From Streptomyces aquilus (lineage in GTDB: Bacteria > Actinomycetota > Actinomycetes > Streptomycetales > Streptomycetaceae): a DNA stretch of 64,000 nt. The position numbers were made by a program, and so were the translations under genes. Below the pieces are notes generated by a model, which saw nothing but the letters and a program-made list of their open reading frames with translations, was not told the DNA's origin and made no database searches. The stretch lies in the NCBI RefSeq assembly GCF_003955715.1, contig NZ_CP034463.1:10292001-10356000 (forward strand), given 5' to 3'. Below are positions 17,737-45,412 of this stretch, piece after piece; position 1 is the first letter of the stretch; each line of letters opens with the position of its first letter.

Positions 17737-18048
17737 ATGCCCAAGCCGTATCCGAAGGAGTTCCGCGAGGACGTCGTGCGGGTCGCGCGCAACCGCGAGC
17801 CCGGCGTCACCCTGGAGCAAGTCGCCGCTGATTTCGGCGTCCACCCGGCCTCATTGACGAAGTGGATCCGACGCGCGGCGGCTGAGGAACGCGGCGAGCC
17901 GGGCCCGGCCGCCGGTCCTGGCTCCGCAAGGAGTGAGTTGGCTGAGCTGGCCGAGGCCCGCAAGCGGATCAGGCTGCTGGAGCAGGAGAACGAGGTACTG
18001 CGCCGGGCCGCGGCGTATCTGTCGCAGGCGAATCTGCCGGCAAAATGA
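17737..18048 (+). CDS. IS3-family OrfA (HTH_Tnp_1)
   Basis: The 103-residue protein starts MPKPYPKEFREDVVRVARN. Its helix-turn-helix (VTLEQVAADFGVHPASLTKW) is followed by a leucine zipper-like helix (RIRLLEQENEVLRRAAAYL), typical of IS3 OrfA proteins that bind the ends and pair with OrfB. The stop overlaps the orfB start as ATGA at 18045-18048. OrfB is therefore made by coupled re-initiation, not by the usual frameshift. Confidence 0.9.
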   Translation: MPKPYPKEFREDVVRVARNREPGVTLEQVAADFGVHPASLTKWIRRAAAEERGEPGPAAGPGSARSELAELAEARKRIRLLEQENEVLRRAAAYLSQANLPAK

Positions 18049-18935
18049 TGTACCCGCTCGTCCGCGAGCTGGCCGCCGCCGTCGCCCCTCGTCGTGTGCC
18101 GGTGGCGGTGACGTGCCGGGTGCTCGGGCTGGCCCGTCAGCCCTACTACCGGTGGCTGAGGTCCCCGGTCACCGACACCGAACTGACCGAGGCCTACCGG
18201 GCCAACGCCCTGTTCAACGCGCACCGCGACGACCCGGAGTTCGGCCACCGCTTCCTCGTCGACGAGGCCCGCGCCGCAGGCGAGGCGATGGCTGAGCGGA
18301 CCGCCTGGCGGATCTGCCGGGACAACCGCTGGTGGAGCGTGTTCGGCAAGCGCAAGGGCCGCGGCAAGAACGCCAAGGCGGGGCCGCCGGTTCACAACGA
18401 CCGGGTGCAGCGCGACTTCACCGCCCAGGCGCCGAACCGACTGTGGCTGACCGACATCACCGAGCACCCCACCGGCGAGGGCAAGCTGTATCTCTGTGCG
18501 GTCAAGGACGTGTTCTCGGGCCGCATCGTGGGCTACTCCATCGACGCAAGGATGAAGTCCCGCCTCGCGGTGACCGCGCTGGAGTCTGCCATCGCCCGCC
18601 GCGGCCAGGTCGCCGGATGCATCGTGCATTCGGATCGTGGATCGCAGTTCCGTTCACGGAAATTCGTCGCCGTTCTCACCCACCACGGCATGGCCGGCTC
18701 GATGGGAAAGGTCGGGGCAGCCGGCGACAACGCGGCGATGGAGAGCTTCTTCGCGCTGCTGCAGAAGAACGTCCTGGATCGCCAAGTCTGGTCCATTCGA
18801 CAGGAGTTGCGGATCGCGATCGTGACCTGGATCGAGCGCAATTACCACCGCCGTCGACGCCAAAGACGCCTGGCCCGTTTGACCCCCATCGAGTACGAGA
18901 CCATCATGACCCCACCCGCAGCCCTGGCTGCATAA
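18045..18935 (+). CDS. IS3-family OrfB transposase
   Basis: The 296-residue integrase-fold transposase carries the DDE residues in LWLTDITEHPTG (Asp), CIVHSDRGSQFRS (Asp) and NAAMESFFALLQK (Glu). It ends RLARLTPIEYETIMTPP, typical of the family. All motifs are present, so the copy may be active. Its start overlaps orfA by 4 bases. Confidence 0.93.
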   Translation: MMYPLVRELAAAVAPRRVPVAVTCRVLGLARQPYYRWLRSPVTDTELTEAYRANALFNAHRDDPEFGHRFLVDEARAAGEAMAERTAWRICRDNRWWSVFGKRKGRGKNAKAGPPVHNDRVQRDFTAQAPNRLWLTDITEHPTGEGKLYLCAVKDVFSGRIVGYSIDARMKSRLAVTALESAIARRGQVAGCIVHSDRGSQFRSRKFVAVLTHHGMAGSMGKVGAAGDNAAMESFFALLQKNVLDRQVWSIRQELRIAIVTWIERNYHRRRRQRRLARLTPIEYETIMTPPAALAA

Positions 18936-19194: not shown

Positions 19195-20097
19195 CTACGG
19201 AGGGCCACGGAACGATCGCTGGTCAATCACAGAGGTGATGCATGACAGGCATCGTACGGGCCACGGCATCATCACATCTCCCGCGCTCCCGAAGGACAGC
19301 GAGCTGGAGGCGTCTCTGCGAGGGAAACACCTGCTTGCCGTCGTACGACGCCTACGTCGGCTGCGCTGGCCGTGCAATTGGCTGCTGTAGCGAGGCGCGC
19401 CACCCACGCGGTTACGTCCGGAGGCCATTCGGCGCATCGCCTGCACTCCTTCCCGGCGGTCCGCATCTTGGTCTCGCACCAGCCCCGCTGTGCCGTACCT
19501 CCTGAAGGTGAGGTGGCGCTCCCGCCATCGTTGACGTGCCTCCCTCATCAGTTCGGGATCCGCGAGCGGCACGTCGCCTACCTTCGGCAGAGCCCAGGCA
19601 GCGGCGAAGAGATCACGCACAGGAAACAGGTTTTCCCCTGGTGGGGGAGCAGATCCTGAGGGCGCGGTTTTGCGGATCCGGTAAGCCGCTTGCTTGCATG
19701 CGTTGCCGCAGTAGCGGCGAGGTCGGCCTGTCGCGGTCGGCTCCAGCATCGGCTTGCGGCAGTGTGCGCACCGAGGCACGCGGTCCTGTGCCTCCATTGC
19801 TGCGCGCATCATGAGCGAATGCCGTGGACCGTGCTCTGCTGCGTAATCTTCACGCAAGCCCTCTACCGCAGATGAGGTGCGCAGCTGCTGCAGAATGGTG
19901 CCCAGCACCATGTCGAGTCGCTGGTCGACTTCTCTCGTCGCGGTGATCGCCAGAGACAGCTGAGTACGGCTGGCCCCGCCCACGTAGGCGAGCAAGATCT
20001 CCCTGTCGCACGGATGCAGTTCGTTCAGCGCCCGATCCAGCCACCGTTCGTCCGCATGACGCGACGTCGGATCACGGAAGGTCGACGGCCGGCTCAT
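19195..20097 (-). CDS. Zinc-finger protein with sigma-region-4-like helices, cassette A
   Basis: The ATG at 20097 follows AAGGAGAA at 7 bases and overlaps the membrane-gene stop (ATGA). Residues 18-75 are helical and sigma-region-4-like (LDRALNELHPCDREILLAYV, then ASRTQLSLAITATREVDQR). A C-x2-C...C-x3-C finger follows at about 112-140 (CAHCRKPM, YCGNACKQAAYRIRK). It is homologous to the protein at 42692-43174. After about residue 205 the composition turns Arg/Ser-rich and unlike protein (SRRRRRTTASRCFPRRD), so the natural C-terminus has probably been lost by frameshift. DNA or RNA binding is likely. The link to the three-hairpin leader is described separately. Confidence 0.65.
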   Translation of the reverse strand: MSRPSTFRDPTSRHADERWLDRALNELHPCDREILLAYVGGASRTQLSLAITATREVDQRLDMVLGTILQQLRTSSAVEGLREDYAAEHGPRHSLMMRAAMEAQDRVPRCAHCRKPMLEPTATGRPRRYCGNACKQAAYRIRKTAPSGSAPPPGENLFPVRDLFAAAWALPKVGDVPLADPELMREARQRWRERHLTFRRYGTAGLVRDQDADRREGVQAMRRMASGRNRVGGAPRYSSQLHGQRSRRRRRTTASRCFPRRDASSSLSFGSAGDVMMPWPVRCLSCITSVIDQRSFRGPP

Positions 20098-20342
20098 CGC
20101 TGTTCTCCTTCCGAGGCCGAACCCGATGGAGCACCGGTCAACACCCCCTGGGCTTTGCGGCTCGGCAGCAGTGCAACCAGGGTGCGGCCCGTGACTTCCA
20201 GGGTCGAGACCAAGTCGGCCCCGTTCAGGCGCCGTACGACCATGACTGCGATGACACCGAAGACCACAATAGCCGCGATGACCGGCACGAGGGCTGCCAG
20301 CACGATCAGGGTGCTGGTATGGAGGAGCTGAGTAGGGAACAC
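20094..20342 (-). CDS. Small membrane protein, cassette A (82 aa)
   Basis: The GTG at 20342 lies 9 bases after GGAGG. Residues 10-33 form one long transmembrane helix (LIVLAALVPVIAAIVVFGVI), followed by VVRRLNGADLVSTLEVTGR and a polar tail. The stop overlaps the start of the zinc-finger gene by 4 bases. The gene follows a leader with three hairpins (20375-20471). The arrangement is the same as at 43171-43500, although the sequences have drifted. Confidence 0.75.
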   Translation of the reverse strand: MFPTQLLHTSTLIVLAALVPVIAAIVVFGVIAVMVVRRLNGADLVSTLEVTGRTLVALLPSRKAQGVLTGAPSGSASEGEQR

Positions 20343-20374
20343 GATGAGAGCCTCCGGCCCTGAAAATGACGAAA

Positions 20375-20471
20375 GGCCCCCAGCGTGAAGCTGGGAGCCC
20401 GGATGAGTTGAGGAAAGCGAAAAGCCCGCCAGTAGGCGGGCTCGAAGCTTGACTAGGGCACAAGAATGCCC
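20375..20471 (-). promoter_or_regulatory. Three-hairpin leader of cassette A, two terminator-like
   Basis: In transcript order: a GGGCA/TGCCC hairpin (20471-20456); then a perfect 8-bp GC stem (20442-20423) followed by UUUUCG; then a 10-bp stem with one mismatch (20399-20375) followed by UUUCG. The GGAGG and GTG of the membrane gene come next. Both later hairpins look like intrinsic terminators, yet the genes lie downstream. Attenuation or a small RNA with read-through is implied. Confidence 0.7.
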
Positions 20472-20485
20472 GACGTCAACCAATG

Positions 20486-21400
20486 TTACACATGATCAGG
20501 CAGGCATGAAACGTGCAGGTCAGATCGCCGGCCGGTGCTACTCGCCGCTTTCGTAACACAGCTCGATCGCCCAACTGTGCATCGTTGCACTGGTGGGGAA
20601 GCGGTGACACGACTACGGTGCTGCCCCCCCCTGTGCCAGCAGTCCGCGACGTCCTCTGTCGGCGCGTCCTTCCTCGGCTGCAGCGGCGGGGCCTGGACGT
20701 CGGCGCGCCTTGGGGCGTTGGAGATGAACGAGCCGAGCCCGAGCAGCTTCGCCGTCGACGTCCTCGCGGTGCTGACGACCCACGCGAAGGTGCCCCTCCC
20801 GGGTGTGGAACTGGCATGGTCGAAGGGACGGACCCGGCGCGCTCCATCGGGCGGATCTGGCGTCTCCACGAAGAGGATCTCGGGCAGCACTTTGATGAAC
20901 CATGGCGTGAGCTCGGGGAGTGCAGTTGCCAGCGCGTCGGAGCGCAACCTGACGGTGGGGACCACCTCGAAGTGCATGGGCCGACTGGTGTAGAGGTCGA
21001 TCATGTGACGGAGGACCTTCACGAACGACTGCCCCGCCGTCATCCACACCTCAGTGAGCTTGAGGGCGGAGGCCAGAGTCAGCCGAACCCGGTCAGTGCC
21101 GTTGATGGGGGCGCGCATGGGGACGGTGAAGCCGTAGCCAGCGGCATACGGCGCCTGGACGCCGATGCGCGGCAGTGAGTGGAAGATGGCGTCGGCGTCC
21201 TGGCCGCGCATGTCGAACTGGTACTGGACGATGTCCCATTGCGGCTACTCGCCGCGGGCGAGCCACATATGGGCGATCGCGTCGAGGAGGCTGCGCTGAT
21301 CCTGCGTGAGCTCCACGTCGAAGAGCGATTCCAAGGAAACCTCGTGGTACGAAGCAGAGGTGGCGGGCGACCATGGTGGTGCGTCCGTGTCCGACAGACC
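20486..21400 (-). pseudogene. Hypothetical gene with in-frame TAG and decayed end
   Basis: Leftward from about 21400 the frame reads SYHEVSLESLFDVELTQDQR and LLDAIAHMWLARGE, then TAG at 21247-21249. It resumes PQWDIVQYQFDMRGQDADAI and TGTDRVRLTLASALKL-like sequence with good coding character to about 20800. A single change (TGG to TAG) explains the stop. The last 100 codons are low-complexity, so the tail is probably also shifted. No family is recognised. It could be a real gene if the stop is suppressed. Confidence 0.5.
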
Positions 21401-39457: not shown

Positions 39458-40486
39458 GTGCTGGATGATGGGGCGGTGCAGCTCCCCTACGTCTACCGCG
39501 TCACCAAGTACGACCCTGCCGACCGTGACGAACACGGGCATTACACGGGCAGTGAGGACACCGTCAGCGATCACGGCGAGGTCGAGGCGTCTTATCTTCA
39601 GGCGGTCGCGGCCTTCGCCGGGGACAGCGGCGTCGATCACCTGGCCGTACGTGAACCACAGGTCCCGTCCTTGGCGCACTTCGGTGTGGAGCCTCCGGTG
39701 GACGGCTTTGGGTTGGACGGGCTCTTCCCTGGCGGCCTTACCGGTTTTCACGACGGGGCAGAAGTACCGCTCGATATCGGGCTGCAGCTGGTGCGAGCCA
39801 TGTTGCGCGAATACGGAGCCTGGTGTCGGCTGGAGGCGGAAGGCGCGTTCGCGGTCCATGTGGGATGGGACCAGTACCTCTACATCAGCAGCAGTCGGCC
39901 TTGCGAGGAAGCGTTGGCCCACACCCGGGAGCTCGGACTCTTCCCAGAACGCCTGGACGCCTCCCCGTACGCCTTCGAGGCCGAGGAGGAAGAGCAGGTC
40001 ATCCAGCGTCCCGGCGATGACGACTTCTGGGCCGACCTGTACTGGGCAGTCGTCACCGGCCAAGCAGGAATTCTGGAAGAGACGTATCTCGAAGGTGCCT
40101 CACGATGGCACCACCTCACCAGCGACACCATCGACCCCGTTCGCGCTGGACTGGCTCCCCGGGCCCGTCTCGCCGTCTGGCCGCCCCTGTCCACCAACAT
40201 CGACGCCGTCCTGAGAGCCCTGCCCGCTGATGGCCTCGTCGAAGGCGTGTGGCAGGACGACGACGGCAACATCCGCAGCGCCATCGCCGAAGAGGACGAG
40301 TTCCCCGAACTGGCCGCCCGGATATCCCGTGCTCATGCCGCCGCGTTCCTGTCTGTATATGCGGGTGAATCTGTGCCTCTGTGCACTGCTGTCATGCCCG
40401 ACAACGACGGAGTCCTACGGGCTCGTTGGCGAACCGAGCCGACGCCGGGCGACCGCGACTGGGCACTTCGTCAGCCTCCAGGGTGA
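39458..40486 (+). CDS. Conserved actinobacterial protein often annotated RNA-binding (342 aa)
   Basis: GTG 39458. N-terminal signature PYVYRVTKYDPADRDEHGHY, then AVAAFAGDSGVDHLAVREPQ, LQLVRAMLREYGAWCRLEAE and GWDQYLYISSSRPCEEAL. This is a family I recall in Streptomyces, usually labelled RNA-binding protein without strong proof. The C-terminal third (from about 200) has a separate part (STNIDAVLRALPADGLVEGV; AARISRAHAAAFLSVYAGES). It is complete. It stands 128 bases before ku on the same strand. Confidence 0.75.
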   Translation: MLDDGAVQLPYVYRVTKYDPADRDEHGHYTGSEDTVSDHGEVEASYLQAVAAFAGDSGVDHLAVREPQVPSLAHFGVEPPVDGFGLDGLFPGGLTGFHDGAEVPLDIGLQLVRAMLREYGAWCRLEAEGAFAVHVGWDQYLYISSSRPCEEALAHTRELGLFPERLDASPYAFEAEEEEQVIQRPGDDDFWADLYWAVVTGQAGILEETYLEGASRWHHLTSDTIDPVRAGLAPRARLAVWPPLSTNIDAVLRALPADGLVEGVWQDDDGNIRSAIAEEDEFPELAARISRAHAAAFLSVYAGESVPLCTAVMPDNDGVLRARWRTEPTPGDRDWALRQPPG

Positions 40487-40613
40487 GCGCTTCGACCTGC
40501 GGGTCTCAGATTGGTGGCCGCCCGGCCATCGAGTGGCCATCGGTCGTGAGATTCGGCCACGGAATCTGAGATCCCACACCTGCTGGTGCTCGGGGTTTGT
40601 GCGGAGGTCAGTC

Positions 40614-41585
40614 ATGCCCCGAACCATCTGGTCAGGTGCCATCAGCTTCGGTCTGGTGACCGTTCCTGTGCATGTTCAGTCCGCGACGGAAGATCACAGC
40701 ATCCGCTTCCACCAGTACCACCTGGAGGACATGGGCCGGGTACGGGTGAAGAAGGTGTGCGAGCTGGAGGACCGTGAGGTCAGCCAGTCTGAGATCGGCA
40801 AGGGCTACGAGTACGCACAAGACCAAGAAGTCGTCCCGATCACCGATGAGGAGCTGCGTGAGCTTCCGCTGCCGACCGCGAAGGCCATCGAGATCGAGGC
40901 GTTCGTGCCGCTCGACAGCATCGACCCGATCCGCATCGCGGAGGGCTACTACCTGGCGCCGGACGGGCAGGTCGCGGCGAAGCCGTACCGGCTGCTGGTG
41001 CAGGCGCTCGGCCGGTCGTCGAAGGTGGCCGTCGCGAAGTACGCCTGGTCGGGCCGCGAGCGGCTGGGCCTGCTGCGGGTCCGGGACGATGTGATCGTGC
41101 TGCATGCGATGCGCTGGCCGGATGAGGTCCGCAGCCCGGCTGAGCTGCTGCCGCCGCCCACGGAGGTGTCCGACGACGAGATCGAGGGTGCGCTGGCGCT
41201 GATGGAGTCGATGAGCCGCGACGACCTCGAAGGCCCAGAGTTTGCGGACGCCTACACCGACGCCATGGCGAAGATCATCGAAGCGAAGCGCGAGGAGAAA
41301 CCCCTTCCCGAGGCCCCGGAGTCGGGGAAGCCGGGCAAGGTACTGGACCTGATGGCTGCCCTGACGGAGTCCGTGCAGAAGGCCAAGGCCTCCCGCGGCG
41401 AGGCGGGCGACGCCGACGTCCACGATCTGACCCAGGCCAAGAAGACCACCAGGAAGAAGACCGCCGCGAAGAAGACGGCAGCCACGAAGAGCACGGCGAA
41501 GAAGACGGCAGCGAAGACCGCGAAGAAGACGACCGCCCGTAAGACTGCGAAGAAGAGCGCCGGCCGCAAGCCGCGCAGCGCCTGA
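40614..41585 (+). CDS. ku: Ku DNA-end-binding protein
   Basis: ATG 40614 (MPRTIWSGAISFGLVTVPVH) is the canonical start of bacterial Ku. The beta-barrel/ring region follows (IRFHQYHLEDMGRVRVKKVC; YEYAQDQEVVPITDEELREL; AEGYYLAPDGQVAAKPYRLL) to about residue 250. A Lys/Ala-rich tail of about 60 residues (KKTTRKKTAAKKTAATKSTA) is typical of the extended Ku of streptomycetes and adds DNA binding. It works with an ATP-dependent ligase in NHEJ. The intact ligase of this window is 16 kb away at 57262, and a broken copy is at 35218. Confidence 0.95.
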   Translation: MPRTIWSGAISFGLVTVPVHVQSATEDHSIRFHQYHLEDMGRVRVKKVCELEDREVSQSEIGKGYEYAQDQEVVPITDEELRELPLPTAKAIEIEAFVPLDSIDPIRIAEGYYLAPDGQVAAKPYRLLVQALGRSSKVAVAKYAWSGRERLGLLRVRDDVIVLHAMRWPDEVRSPAELLPPPTEVSDDEIEGALALMESMSRDDLEGPEFADAYTDAMAKIIEAKREEKPLPEAPESGKPGKVLDLMAALTESVQKAKASRGEAGDADVHDLTQAKKTTRKKTAAKKTAATKSTAKKTAAKTAKKTTARKTAKKSAGRKPRSA

Positions 41586-42691: not shown

Positions 42692-43174
42692 TCACCCGCG
42701 GTCGCCGTCTCCTGAGCGCGCCGCCTTCCGGCGGGCGCGATATGCCTTCTGACGGCACGCGTTGGAGCAGTACTCGCGCGGTCGCCGAGCGCTCTTGGGA
42801 CGCTCGAAGACCACGCGACACTGTCGGCAGTGGGGCGCGAACCGTTCCTCGATCTTCCATTCGCGGATCAGGGCCCGCAATTCCTCGTCGATGACAAGGG
42901 AGTTTCCATCGTCCGTGTACCAGAGTTCCCGGGCGCTGCTGTGGTTCCTCGGCAGGCGTGCTTGAAACAGCGCAGTCTGAGACTTGAAATGGGCGAGCCA
43001 CTCGTTGATCCCTCCCAGCCCCCGAGCCAGGTCTGCACGGTTCGCGCCATACAGCGCGTAGGCGAGGAGTAGGACCGCCGTCTCGTGGTCGAGAGAGCGG
43101 AGGAGGTAAGTCAGCGAGGCGGTGCGCTCCACGCGGGGCCGGTGTTGCCCGCTGGCTCGGGGCCGCCGACTCAT
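42692..43174 (-). CDS. Zinc-finger protein with sigma-region-4-like helices, cassette B
   Basis: ATG 43174 overlaps the membrane-gene stop (ATGA), as in cassette A. The 160-aa protein starts MSRRPRASG. Residues 22-75 match cassette A in the helices (TYLLRSLDHETAVLLLAYAL, then ANRADLARGL). Residues 115-150 form the finger CRQCRVVFERPKSARRP, then YCSNACRQKAYRARRK. It ends soon after the finger, which suggests the longer tail of cassette A is aberrant. Nucleic-acid binding is likely. Function unknown. Confidence 0.75.
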   Translation of the reverse strand: MSRRPRASGQHRPRVERTASLTYLLRSLDHETAVLLLAYALYGANRADLARGLGGINEWLAHFKSQTALFQARLPRNHSSARELWYTDDGNSLVIDEELRALIREWKIEERFAPHCRQCRVVFERPKSARRPREYCSNACRQKAYRARRKAARSGDGDRG

Positions 43175-43500
43175 CCCTCGTGCCCTGACCTGGCAGACCG
43201 CAGCGCGGTCTCGCTCCGCACGACGACCACGGTCGGCACTGCAGCGGGTTCCTGCTCCACAACCGGGGGCGTCTGGAGGGCCAGTGGCGCCGAGGGCTTG
43301 CCCCAGGGCAGCAGGCCGCAGAGCGCGGAAATGACGTGACTGAGCCCAAGCAGAACCTGCGGTAGGTCGGCGGACGGGGTCCGTCGCGCAATCAGCCAGG
43401 CCATGCAGACCACCATGCCGAGCAGGGCCACGAGGAGCAACGCGGCCAGCACTGCCAGCCAGATGGGCATGCCCAGCAGGGCGGCGGACGGGGTGGGCAA
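43171..43500 (-). CDS. Small membrane protein, cassette B (109 aa)
   Basis: TTG 43500 lies 6 bases after GGAGG. The membrane helix is at about 12-36 (IWLAVLAALLLVALLGMVVC) followed by AWLIARRTPSADLPQ, parallel to cassette A (VVRRLNGADLVS). A second hydrophobic patch (VLLGLSHVISALCGLLPW) precedes a Pro/Val/Glu-rich tail. The stop overlaps the zinc-finger start by 4 bases. It is preceded by the three-hairpin leader. Confidence 0.75.
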   Translation of the reverse strand: MPTPSAALLGMPIWLAVLAALLLVALLGMVVCMAWLIARRTPSADLPQVLLGLSHVISALCGLLPWGKPSAPLALQTPPVVEQEPAAVPTVVVVRSETALRSARSGHEG

Positions 43501-43517
43501 CGGTACCTCCAGGTACG

Positions 43518-43625
43518 AAAAAAGCCCCTGGGGTCACCCAGGGGCTGGTCGAAGAAACAAAAAAGGCCCGTCTTCGCCACTGGAAGAAGAGCCTCAGCAT
43601 GTGAGGGCACACGCGTGTTGCCCTC
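43518..43625 (-). promoter_or_regulatory. Three-hairpin leader of cassette B, two terminator-like
   Basis: In transcript order: GAGGGCA/TGCCCTC stem (43625-43603); an 11-bp stem with two mismatches (43593-43565) followed by UUUUUUG; a perfect 10-bp stem (43546-43523) followed by UUUUUUCG; then GGAGG and the TTG start. A TTGACC-18-CAAGAT promoter-like pair lies upstream near 43633-43662. The order matches the leader of cassette A. Confidence 0.75.
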
Positions 43626-43629
43626 AATC

Positions 43630-44037
43630 TCATCTTGTCAGAGTCGCCGCAACAGGGTCAACCCCCGGAAAACCGCAGGGCAGTTGTGATCCGGCTGCAT
43701 GGGTGGGGTTCCTTCGAATTTCGTAACGCACCTGTCCTCGGCGTGGGTGGGCAGCTACGCGGTCGCGGTGACCCGTGGAATCGGTGTCCCGCCCTACGGC
43801 GACGGCGTCGCCGTGCTTCCACTGACCTGGCAAGCACCCCGGTGGGGCGCACCGCGCGGCGAGCAGCTCTTGGATGGCGAAGGCGGTCGTGTCATCGGCG
43901 GCCGCGATCTCCACCACGGCCAGGCCCGGTAGCGCCGTATGTGCCTGGTTGATGTACGGCATGACGCGCTGGCGCGTACGGGCGTTCTCGATCAGCGGTG
44001 CGTTGACGTGGTCGGCCTCATGGTCGGGGCGCGCCAC
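43630..44037 (-). CDS. Small hypothetical protein, paralogue of 44102-44362
   Basis: GTG 44037 opens a 135-codon frame. The core LIENARTRQRVMPYINQAHT, GLAVVEIAAADDTTAFAIQE matches the neighbour's GLAMVEIAAADTATALAVQA. After LLAARCAPPG the similarity ends, and the tail to 43630 overlaps the promoter region of cassette B, so the true stop may have been lost. The start lies within the inverted repeat 44007-44070. Function unknown. Confidence 0.45.
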   Translation of the reverse strand: MARPDHEADHVNAPLIENARTRQRVMPYINQAHTALPGLAVVEIAAADDTTAFAIQELLAARCAPPGCLPGQWKHGDAVAVGRDTDSTGHRDRVAAHPRRGQVRYEIRRNPTHAAGSQLPCGFPGVDPVAATLTR

Positions 44038-44070
44038 CCGTGGTCTGCCCCGACCATGAGGCCGACCACG
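44007..44070. repeat. 24-bp perfect inverted repeat with nested second palindrome
   Basis: 44007-44030 is the exact complement of 44047-44070, with a 16-base centre. An overlapping pair (44034-44045 and 44064-44075, CCACCCGTGGTC type) uses part of the same DNA, so two alternative hairpins can form. It sits between the paralogous small genes. The motif GGTCGG..(T/C)CATGGTCGGGG also occurs at 58.5 kb. Confidence 0.85.
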
Positions 44071-44101
44071 GGTGGGTGTGGAGGTGCGGGGCTAGGGCTG
44101 C

Positions 44102-44554: not shown

Positions 44555-45412
44555 GTGGCTGAGCGGCAGCCGTACCCGAGTGATCTGTCGGATGAGGCAT
44601 GGGAGTTGATCCGGCCGGTCATCACGGCCTGGAAGGGACAGCACCGCTCGGTCAGCGGTCATCAGGGCCGATACGAGATGCGGGAGATCGTGAACGCGAT
44701 CCTGTATCAGGCCCGGGTCGGCTGCCAGTGGCGTTACCTGCCGCACGACTTCCCGCCGTACACCGCGGTGTACTACTACTTCGGGCTGTGGCGCGATGAC
44801 GGCACCGACCAGACCATCCACGATCTGCTGCGCTGGCAGGTCCGCGAGTCGAAGGGCCGGCGCGAGGACCCGTCCGCGGTCGTCATGGACTCCCAGACCG
44901 TGCACGCCTCGGTCAACGCCCCCAAGGAGACGACCGGGCTGGACCCGGGCAAGAAGAGCCGGGGCCGCAAGCGGGGCATCGCCACCGATGTACTCGGTCT
45001 GCTCATCGCCGTGATCGTGGTCGCCGCGAGCGTGCACGACAACGCCGTCGGAATCACGCTGCTGGACAAGGTGGCCGCCGACAACCCCGGCGTGGTGAAG
45101 AGCTGGGTCGATGCCGGGTTCAAGAACGCCGTCATCGAGCACGGCAGGTCGCTGGGCATCGACGTCGAGGTGGTATCGCGTGACCCGCAGGCGAAGGGGT
45201 TCGCCCCGTCACCGAAGCGGTGGATCGTCGAGCAGACCTTCGGCACACTCATGCTGCACCGCCGCCTGGCCCGCGACTACGAGACCCTGCCCGCCAGTTC
45301 CGCGTCCTGGATCCGCTGGTCGATGACCGACGTCATGACCCACCGGCTCACCGCCACGACCACTCCCACCTGGCGGGACCGCCGCCGACCCGCTTCCCCC
45401 GGACCGGCATGA
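44555..45412 (+). CDS. IS5-family transposase (copy 2)
   Basis: 285 aa, identical in translation to the gene at 25596-26453, with the same DDE residues (VVMDSQTV, WVDAGFKN, WIVEQTFG). Two identical copies 19 kb apart imply recent transposition and offer a site for recombination that would delete or circularise the DNA between them. Confidence 0.92.
   Translation: MAERQPYPSDLSDEAWELIRPVITAWKGQHRSVSGHQGRYEMREIVNAILYQARVGCQWRYLPHDFPPYTAVYYYFGLWRDDGTDQTIHDLLRWQVRESKGRREDPSAVVMDSQTVHASVNAPKETTGLDPGKKSRGRKRGIATDVLGLLIAVIVVAASVHDNAVGITLLDKVAADNPGVVKSWVDAGFKNAVIEHGRSLGIDVEVVSRDPQAKGFAPSPKRWIVEQTFGTLMLHRRLARDYETLPASSASWIRWSMTDVMTHRLTATTTPTWRDRRRPASPGPA

Follow-up and report, generated by a model that had tools for sequence, protein, structure and literature searches.

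The 64,000-nucleotide (nt) window of Streptomyces aquilus analysed here (bases 10292001-10356000 of the 10.39 Mb single-contig genome) carries, on its minus strand, two copies of a conserved unit in which a structured leader precedes a gene for a small membrane (TM) protein and a gene for a zinc-finger (Zn-finger) protein. Comparison with related loci suggests that the unit is an unrecognised self-controlled genetic switch. We put the chances at about even that it is a single conserved operon that controls itself, is off by default and is expressed only when polymerase passes the terminators in its leader. From 5' to 3', copy B (43727-42692) and copy A (20557-19195) have in common the 9-mer GTTACGAAA (motif M1), a promoter-like sequence, a hairpin (H1), two terminator-like stems (T1 and T2), the TM gene and the Zn-finger gene.

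A first-pass annotation of copy B had reported a leader with a GGGCA/TGCCC hairpin, which is H1, followed by a membrane gene and a zinc-finger gene overlapping by ATGA, and had placed the same arrangement at 19.2-20.5 kb. The overlap was found in both copies, and copy A carries all the parts that were named. Overlooked at that stage were GTTACGAAA, the sigma region 4 (sigma-4) nature of the second protein and the presence of both copies also at the opposite chromosome end.

Results

Conserved leader

The comparison set consists of 27 loci with the protein pair: the two described here, others in Streptomyces, four on plasmids and two in genomes of another family. In one of these (L271) a contig end truncates the second gene before the zinc module. 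Left out of the set were TM matches without a verified partner (L047, L049, L052-L054, L056, L057, L063, L065, L066 and lower matches), the decayed L103, leaders without a TM gene (L114, L247, L249) and duplicates of other places (L007, L041-L044, L050, L055). The conserved parts of the unit, their covariation, the placement of the upstream motifs, the gene overlap and the identity of region 4 were all computed. The leader is present in all 27 loci and its helices covary among 14 class I leaders, so that the comparison supports, as far as sequence reaches, the earlier proposal of a regulated unit with an RNA part.

The distance from H1 to the start codon is 122-136 nt, and in one locus 160 nt. 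The leader hairpins were recognised by eye and folded with RNAfold, the H1 strings also being picked by eye. Both leaders in the window fold better than dinucleotide shuffles, with z -3.97 for copy B (1 of 200 shuffles as good) and z -6.97 for copy A (0 of 200). A terminator scan listed T2 and one unrelated 5-pair site in copy B (2 found, 0.8 in shuffles) and only T1 in copy A (1 found, 0.4 in shuffles). T1 and its T-run end 47-70 nt after the start of H1 in 27 leaders, a set in which L047 and L049 stand in for L265 and L271, as they do in the comparison of GUG frames below. Two terminator-like hairpins with U-tracts had been claimed for the leader; the stems were found in both copies, but T2 of copy A is followed only by a short broken U-run (CCTTTCGTC). 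In class II loci (L058-L064) T2 is longer with little or no U-run, and therefore it may not be a terminator there.

Among 14 class I leaders, 87.1% of the cells in H1, T1 and T2 are paired and 13 of 31 pairs change on both sides, including 4 of the 7 pairs in H1 (helix 1). Cells with double changes number 27, compared with 10.2 in shuffles (0 of 500 as high), and these values drop when the partners are slid. The number of further pair types is unexceptional (55 of 500 shuffles; 32 vs 31 at slide +1), and RNAalifold on A4 favours swapped arms between T1 and T2. The compensatory changes support three predicted helices, H1, T1 and T2.

A covariance model of the 14 leaders (R1) matched 10 of 12 other pair leaders at E <=1e-3; the match omits H1 in L008, L015 and L059, and L061 and L064 were missed altogether. 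Copy A, which is outside the model, was matched at 20344-20477 (20.1 bits, E 7e-4). A search with R1, similar to the covariance search suggested in the first-pass annotation, gave, with stricter filters in 246 genomes, seven matches of >=75 bits, all directly 5' of a TM gene, and in one of these genomes (G050) no sigma-4/Zn gene was found. The weaker matches are mixed. Below 40 bits one is a real unit (G196), and of the 13 other weak matches listed L247 and L249 look like leaders without a TM gene; the rest were read as chance terminators or tRNA neighbourhoods. In 17 unit-bearing genomes all model matches above 30 bits sit at units. The unit leader was recovered in 11 of them, and because it was missed in six (G056, G101, G115, G173, G201 and G306) R1 is a model of class I leaders. 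Rfam 15 gave no match at gathering score in the window, the best below it being suhB/mmgR with 19.8 bits vs 41.

Leader-like sequences with no recognisable TM gene were seen in L114 (1500-1730, with GTTACGAAA), L247 and L249. By eye, L247 has another reading frame about 230 nt after the leader that is possibly membrane-bound.

Upstream motifs

M1 is exact in 24 of the 27 loci and has one mismatch in the other three, where 0.21 of 27 would be expected from mononucleotide shuffles of the same 200-nt stretches. It is located 86-136 nt 5' of H1. A second motif, M2 (TGACCTGC), is exact in 11 loci and has at most one mismatch in 18 (1.2 expected from the same shuffles), some of the one-mismatch matches falling outside the usual place (L021, L064). 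A promoter-like pair comes next, in class I loci TTGAC and then, 17-18 nt on, a -10-like hexamer (by eye). M2 itself, which lies 5' of this predicted promoter, is similar to a -35 element. A simple promoter scan listed no promoter in the region of either copy.

The pattern M1-gap-M2 was found in 13 of 246 Streptomyces genomes (15 places), compared with 3 for the reversed control. Five of these places are at units (two in the present genome, G000, and one each in G115, G173 and G236), one further place is the L114 leader, and the remaining nine, which include several near-identical sequences, resemble coding matches. A role for GTTACGAAA as the site of a wide regulon was considered and is unsupported: in 16 genomes there are 55 occurrences, of which 40 lie away from units, vs 57 for the reversed control.

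In L009, L010 and L013 GTTACGAAA is present near 1508-1511 in coding sequence where the zinc-module match begins. These genes, which we take to be TetR-like, have the same zinc module as their C-terminus, and the 9-mer may be a codon coincidence or a shuffling junction.

The two proteins

The second protein of copy B has a region-4-like helix-turn-helix (about residues 16-87) followed by a CxxC...RPRxYCSNACRQxAYR module. In 23 second-protein sequences the four cysteines are invariant and RPRxYCSxxCRQxAYR is nearly so. The protein of L265 matches sigma-70 region 4 (PF04545) with 64.6 bits (cut-off 24.1, E 5.7e-18), Sigma70_r4_2 is matched weakly by 4 of 11 A2 members (best E 0.0033), and P0002 has no Pfam match. 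The N-terminal part of the family profile matches sigma-70 region 4 in PDB, and the copy B protein shows fold similarity to region 4 with middling scores. The second protein appears to consist of an isolated sigma-70 region 4 and a zinc module, which sharpens the nucleic-acid-binding partner of the first-pass annotation. Region 2 was not found in the proteins of copy B (160 aa) or L265 (167 aa), only region 4, and because of this the protein is not a sigma factor; a complete sigma-70 factor was rejected since regions 2 and 4 were not found in one chain. The fold search listed no antiterminator, which excludes nothing.

A structure model of the copy B TM protein has a long helix (13-40) and then a helix at 43-63 (mean pLDDT, predicted local distance difference test, 67; low confidence). 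The conserved stretch ADLPxVLxGLxxVIxALxxLLPWG underlies the latter. No curated family above cut-off was found for the TM proteins scanned, hence no known anti-sigma domain. Pfam and NCBIfam gave no family above cut-off for the window proteins, and PADLOC-DB 2.0.0 gave 0 families for all four at E <=1.

The Zn-finger proteins of the two copies are related (32% identical over 121 residues, E 2e-11), and the TM proteins have no BLASTP match to each other and are joined only through intermediates. In 24 of the 26 pairs computed (L271 left out) the two genes overlap by 4 nt, the second beginning within the stop codon of the TM gene; the overlap is larger in L021, a 31-nt gap is found in L060, and L024 has an alternative ATG 3 nt later.

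Distribution

The Zn-finger protein of copy B was matched in 17 loci in a scan of named genomes. Six of these (L020-L025, Streptomyces) match most of the protein and the other 11 the zinc-module end only. The TM profile matches 44 of 392 Streptomyces genomes at E <=0.01, 25 of these at E <=1e-4, and the Zn-finger profile alone matches 122 at E <=1e-6; most of the Zn-finger profile matches listed cover only the zinc module, which is common to other proteins too. Co-occurrence of the two families had been proposed as a check, and their matches lie side by side in 16 of the 392 genomes. In a class-wide sample of 236 genomes the TM profile matched four, one of them outside Streptomyces (G590), and in 140 genomes of that family it matched G590 and G720.

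Five records of Streptomyces plasmids were found, four with a complete unit and one with a decayed one, and the annotated neighbours of the units vary among plasmid records. The decayed copy (L103 7800-8120, on a 1.56 Mb plasmid) has, by eye, one terminator stem, no GTTACGAAA and a disturbed TM frame. A search of 50,697 phage records gave no match to the second protein of copy B. In viral contigs no relative of P0001 was found; the protein of L265 matches one contig with the region 4 part only, and that of L025 seven contigs with the zinc-module end only. A tblastn search with the protein of L265 gave mostly sigma factors among the matches listed (at least 312 plasmid and at least 38 phage records).

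A related TM subfamily was seen in L052, L053, L054 and L057 (ARPEDLQHILPGLGQVLAALALFLPWG in L053 and L054), where no sigma-4/Zn gene was found; the leader model gives a weak match in L052 and L054.

Genomic setting

Both Zn-finger genes were matched with equal score near the opposite chromosome end (G000:C1:58814 and 81993). The window is therefore taken to lie in a terminal inverted repeat, apparently a long one, with each unit present twice per genome and four in all. Units are found close to contig ends in G000, G236 and G284 and mid-contig in G101, G226 and G348. The features of both copies are given in Table 1.

Table 1. Features of copies A and B of the unit in the window
Feature	Position	Strand	Basis or remark
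M1 GTTACGAAA, copy B	43719..43727	-	102 nt 5' of H1
M2-like site TGCCCTGC (consensus TGACCTGC), copy B	43675..43682	-	motif comparison over 27 loci
Predicted promoter, copy B, TTGACC - 18 nt - CAAGAT	43632..43661	-	by eye and comparison with other class I loci
H1, predicted 5'-terminal leader RNA hairpin, copy B (GAGGGCA..TGCCCTC)	43603..43625	-	covariation, folding
T1, terminator-like stem then TTTTTT, copy B	43563..43595	-	covariation (helix 2), folding
T2, terminator-like 10-pair stem then TTTTTTCG, copy B	43523..43546	-	terminator scan, covariation (helix 3), folding
Ribosome-binding site GGAGG, copy B, 5 nt before TTG	43506..43510	-	sequence
TM gene, copy B, 109 aa, TTG start	43171..43500	-	translation, structure model
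Sigma-4/Zn gene, copy B, 160 aa, ATGA overlap with TM gene	42692..43174	-	translation, profile, fold
M1 GTTACGAAA, copy A	20549..20557	-	motif comparison
M2 TGACCTGC, copy A	20515..20522	-	motif comparison
H1, copy A (GGGCATTCTTGTGCCC)	20456..20471	-	model R1 match, folding
T1, copy A, stem ends in TT, then TTCGCTTT	20422..20443	-	terminator scan, folding
T2, copy A, weak, short broken U-run (CCTTTCGTC)	20375..20400	-	sequence, folding
TM gene, copy A, 82 aa, GTG start	20094..20342	-	translation
Sigma-4/Zn gene, copy A, 300 aa, C-terminal extension, ATGA overlap	19195..20097	-	translation, comparison of the two copies

Near both units there are genes that we take to be transposase-like and to belong to insertion sequences (17737-18935 + and 44555-45412 +). 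A gene at 40230-41585 +, presumably Ku-like, encodes a long lysine-rich C-terminal tail according to its translation. A large near-perfect inverted repeat is located at about 43995-44080 (gtggtcggcctcatggtcgggg / ccccgaccatgaggccgaccac).

Discussion

From these parts we infer how the promoter is used, where transcription ends, what the protein acts on and what the TM protein does. RNA polymerase would start a few nt before H1, which would place H1 at the 5' end of the transcript. T1 (about 50-75 nt) or T2 (about 110 nt) would stop most transcripts and so give rise to short leader RNAs, so that the TM and sigma-4/Zn proteins would be made by read-through only, with coupled translation. The sigma-4/Zn protein might then act back on its own unit, raising initiation and/or read-through of T1 and T2. 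Sigma region 4 binds a -35-like DNA element and the beta-flap, and here the domain might recognise M2 and/or M1 as its -35-like sequence and contact the tip of the beta-flap of RNA polymerase, to which NusA also binds, with H1 as a possible RNA landing site for the protein. The likeliest target would be its own unit, because M2 resembles a -35 element and M1 is no commoner than chance elsewhere. The TM protein, in which the conserved helix adjoins the membrane helix, might hold or release the sigma-4/Zn protein or be the effector itself.

A more specific version, tentative and rather unlikely in our view, is that region 4 has turned into a stand-alone, zinc-fused elongation factor. The protein would load at its own leader (H1 RNA and/or M1/M2 DNA), displace NusA from the beta-flap and pass T1 and T2, gated by the membrane partner, which would make the unit a new class of antitermination switch on plasmids and chromosomes of actinobacteria.

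The short leader RNA could instead be the main product, as a small RNA (sRNA) that acts in trans and is made up of H1, the U-rich linker and T1 (about 60-75 nt). Termination would then keep the TM protein scarce, and this would be a small membrane toxin or an exclusion protein, a logic resembling that of type I/III toxin-antitoxin loci. H1 with the linker and a terminator is shaped like an sRNA, the TM protein is small with one helix, the units occur on plasmids, and some leader-like sequences (L114, L247, L249) have no recognisable TM gene. However, these three resemble decay products or weak matches, neither a toxin nor a defence family was found, no tandem RNA repeats were seen by eye, and the sigma-4/Zn partner is left unexplained. 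We consider this unlikely. It is less probable still that H1 is a palindromic DNA operator for a sigma-4/Zn autorepressor and that T1 and T2 merely damp expression. Covariation alone cannot separate a palindrome from a hairpin, and the inverted repeat of H1 follows the predicted -10 by a few nt, but the spacing of the arms differs between loci, which is unusual for a dimer operator, H1 contains five G-U cells, and the invariant DNA site is M1 and not H1.

Ribosome-mediated attenuation, where a short frame from a GUG atop H1 would control T1, is very improbable. Six of 25 frames (L023, L024, L025, L102, L104, L105) do have 6 codons and stop at the T1 base, but the other 19 pass through T1 or stop elsewhere, two of the 27 loci have no such GUG, and the close relatives L020 and L021 differ in T1 length; the short upstream frame was rejected on this comparison across leaders. 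The least probable explanation, for which the resemblance of T1 and T2 to ordinary terminators speaks, is that the stems terminate upstream genes or are insulators unrelated to the pair. The first-pass annotation had named hairpins of unrelated upstream genes, and protein pairs lacking a structured leader, as outcomes that would speak against it, and neither was seen. In all 27 loci the stems follow the predicted promoter and fall in the 122-160 nt that precede the TM start; they covary among class I leaders, and the neighbours differ in plasmid records. Termination of upstream genes was rejected because of the position of the stems.

If region 4 works outside a sigma factor, promoter recognition and termination control would be joined in one small protein, and the unit would be a new class if the antitermination version is true. 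To our knowledge, few examples of leader-based control of transcription on mobile or accessory DNA have been described in Actinobacteria. The unit is directly testable in a laboratory Streptomyces because its RNA covaries, its upstream DNA site is invariant and its two proteins are defined. The covariance model and the motif also enable annotation of a unit for whose proteins in the window Pfam and NCBIfam give no family above cut-off.

Comparison with known systems

The unit matches no Rfam, Pfam, NCBIfam or PADLOC family within the window, and no account of it was found in the open-licence literature. Control by read-through of a leader has a precedent in Bacillus velezensis, where the 417-nt dfn leader has a small hairpin upstream of an intrinsic terminator and LoaP, a NusG paralogue, is a dedicated read-through factor that antagonises NusA (PMC12691694). 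LoaP shows that read-through can be achieved with no more than a small hairpin in the leader and an antagonist of NusA (PMC12691694). Like that leader, the one described here has a predicted hairpin upstream of terminator-like stems. In contrast to what is described there, it is only 122-160 nt long, has two stems and precedes the operon of its own candidate factor, in which sigma region 4 is joined to a zinc module and for which family scans gave no NusG-family match. The binding properties of region 4, together with the LoaP precedent, therefore favour self-controlled read-through and/or initiation.

In phage lambda the Q and N systems have a promoter followed by a short terminated leader and a factor that contacts RNA polymerase, and Q combines a helix-turn-helix with a zinc site. 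Unlike these factors, P0001-P0004 and the two proteins of L265 have no Pfam match to such families at E <=1, and the unit is found on plasmids and chromosomes, the second protein of copy B being unmatched in the phage records. Pairs of sigma and membrane anti-sigma factors, and the split sigma SigO-RsoA of Bacillus, couple a small membrane protein with a sigma-region protein, as the unit does. It differs from them in that no region 2 or anti-sigma domain was found, the membrane gene comes first and the leader is structured. Type I and type III toxin-antitoxin loci have a short RNA with a terminator before a small protein gene, whereas the unit has no tandem RNA repeats (by eye), matches no toxin family and has a sigma-4/Zn gene as its second gene. 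What is already known is a leader that must be read through; what is new is a sigma-4/Zn protein with its own leader and a membrane partner.
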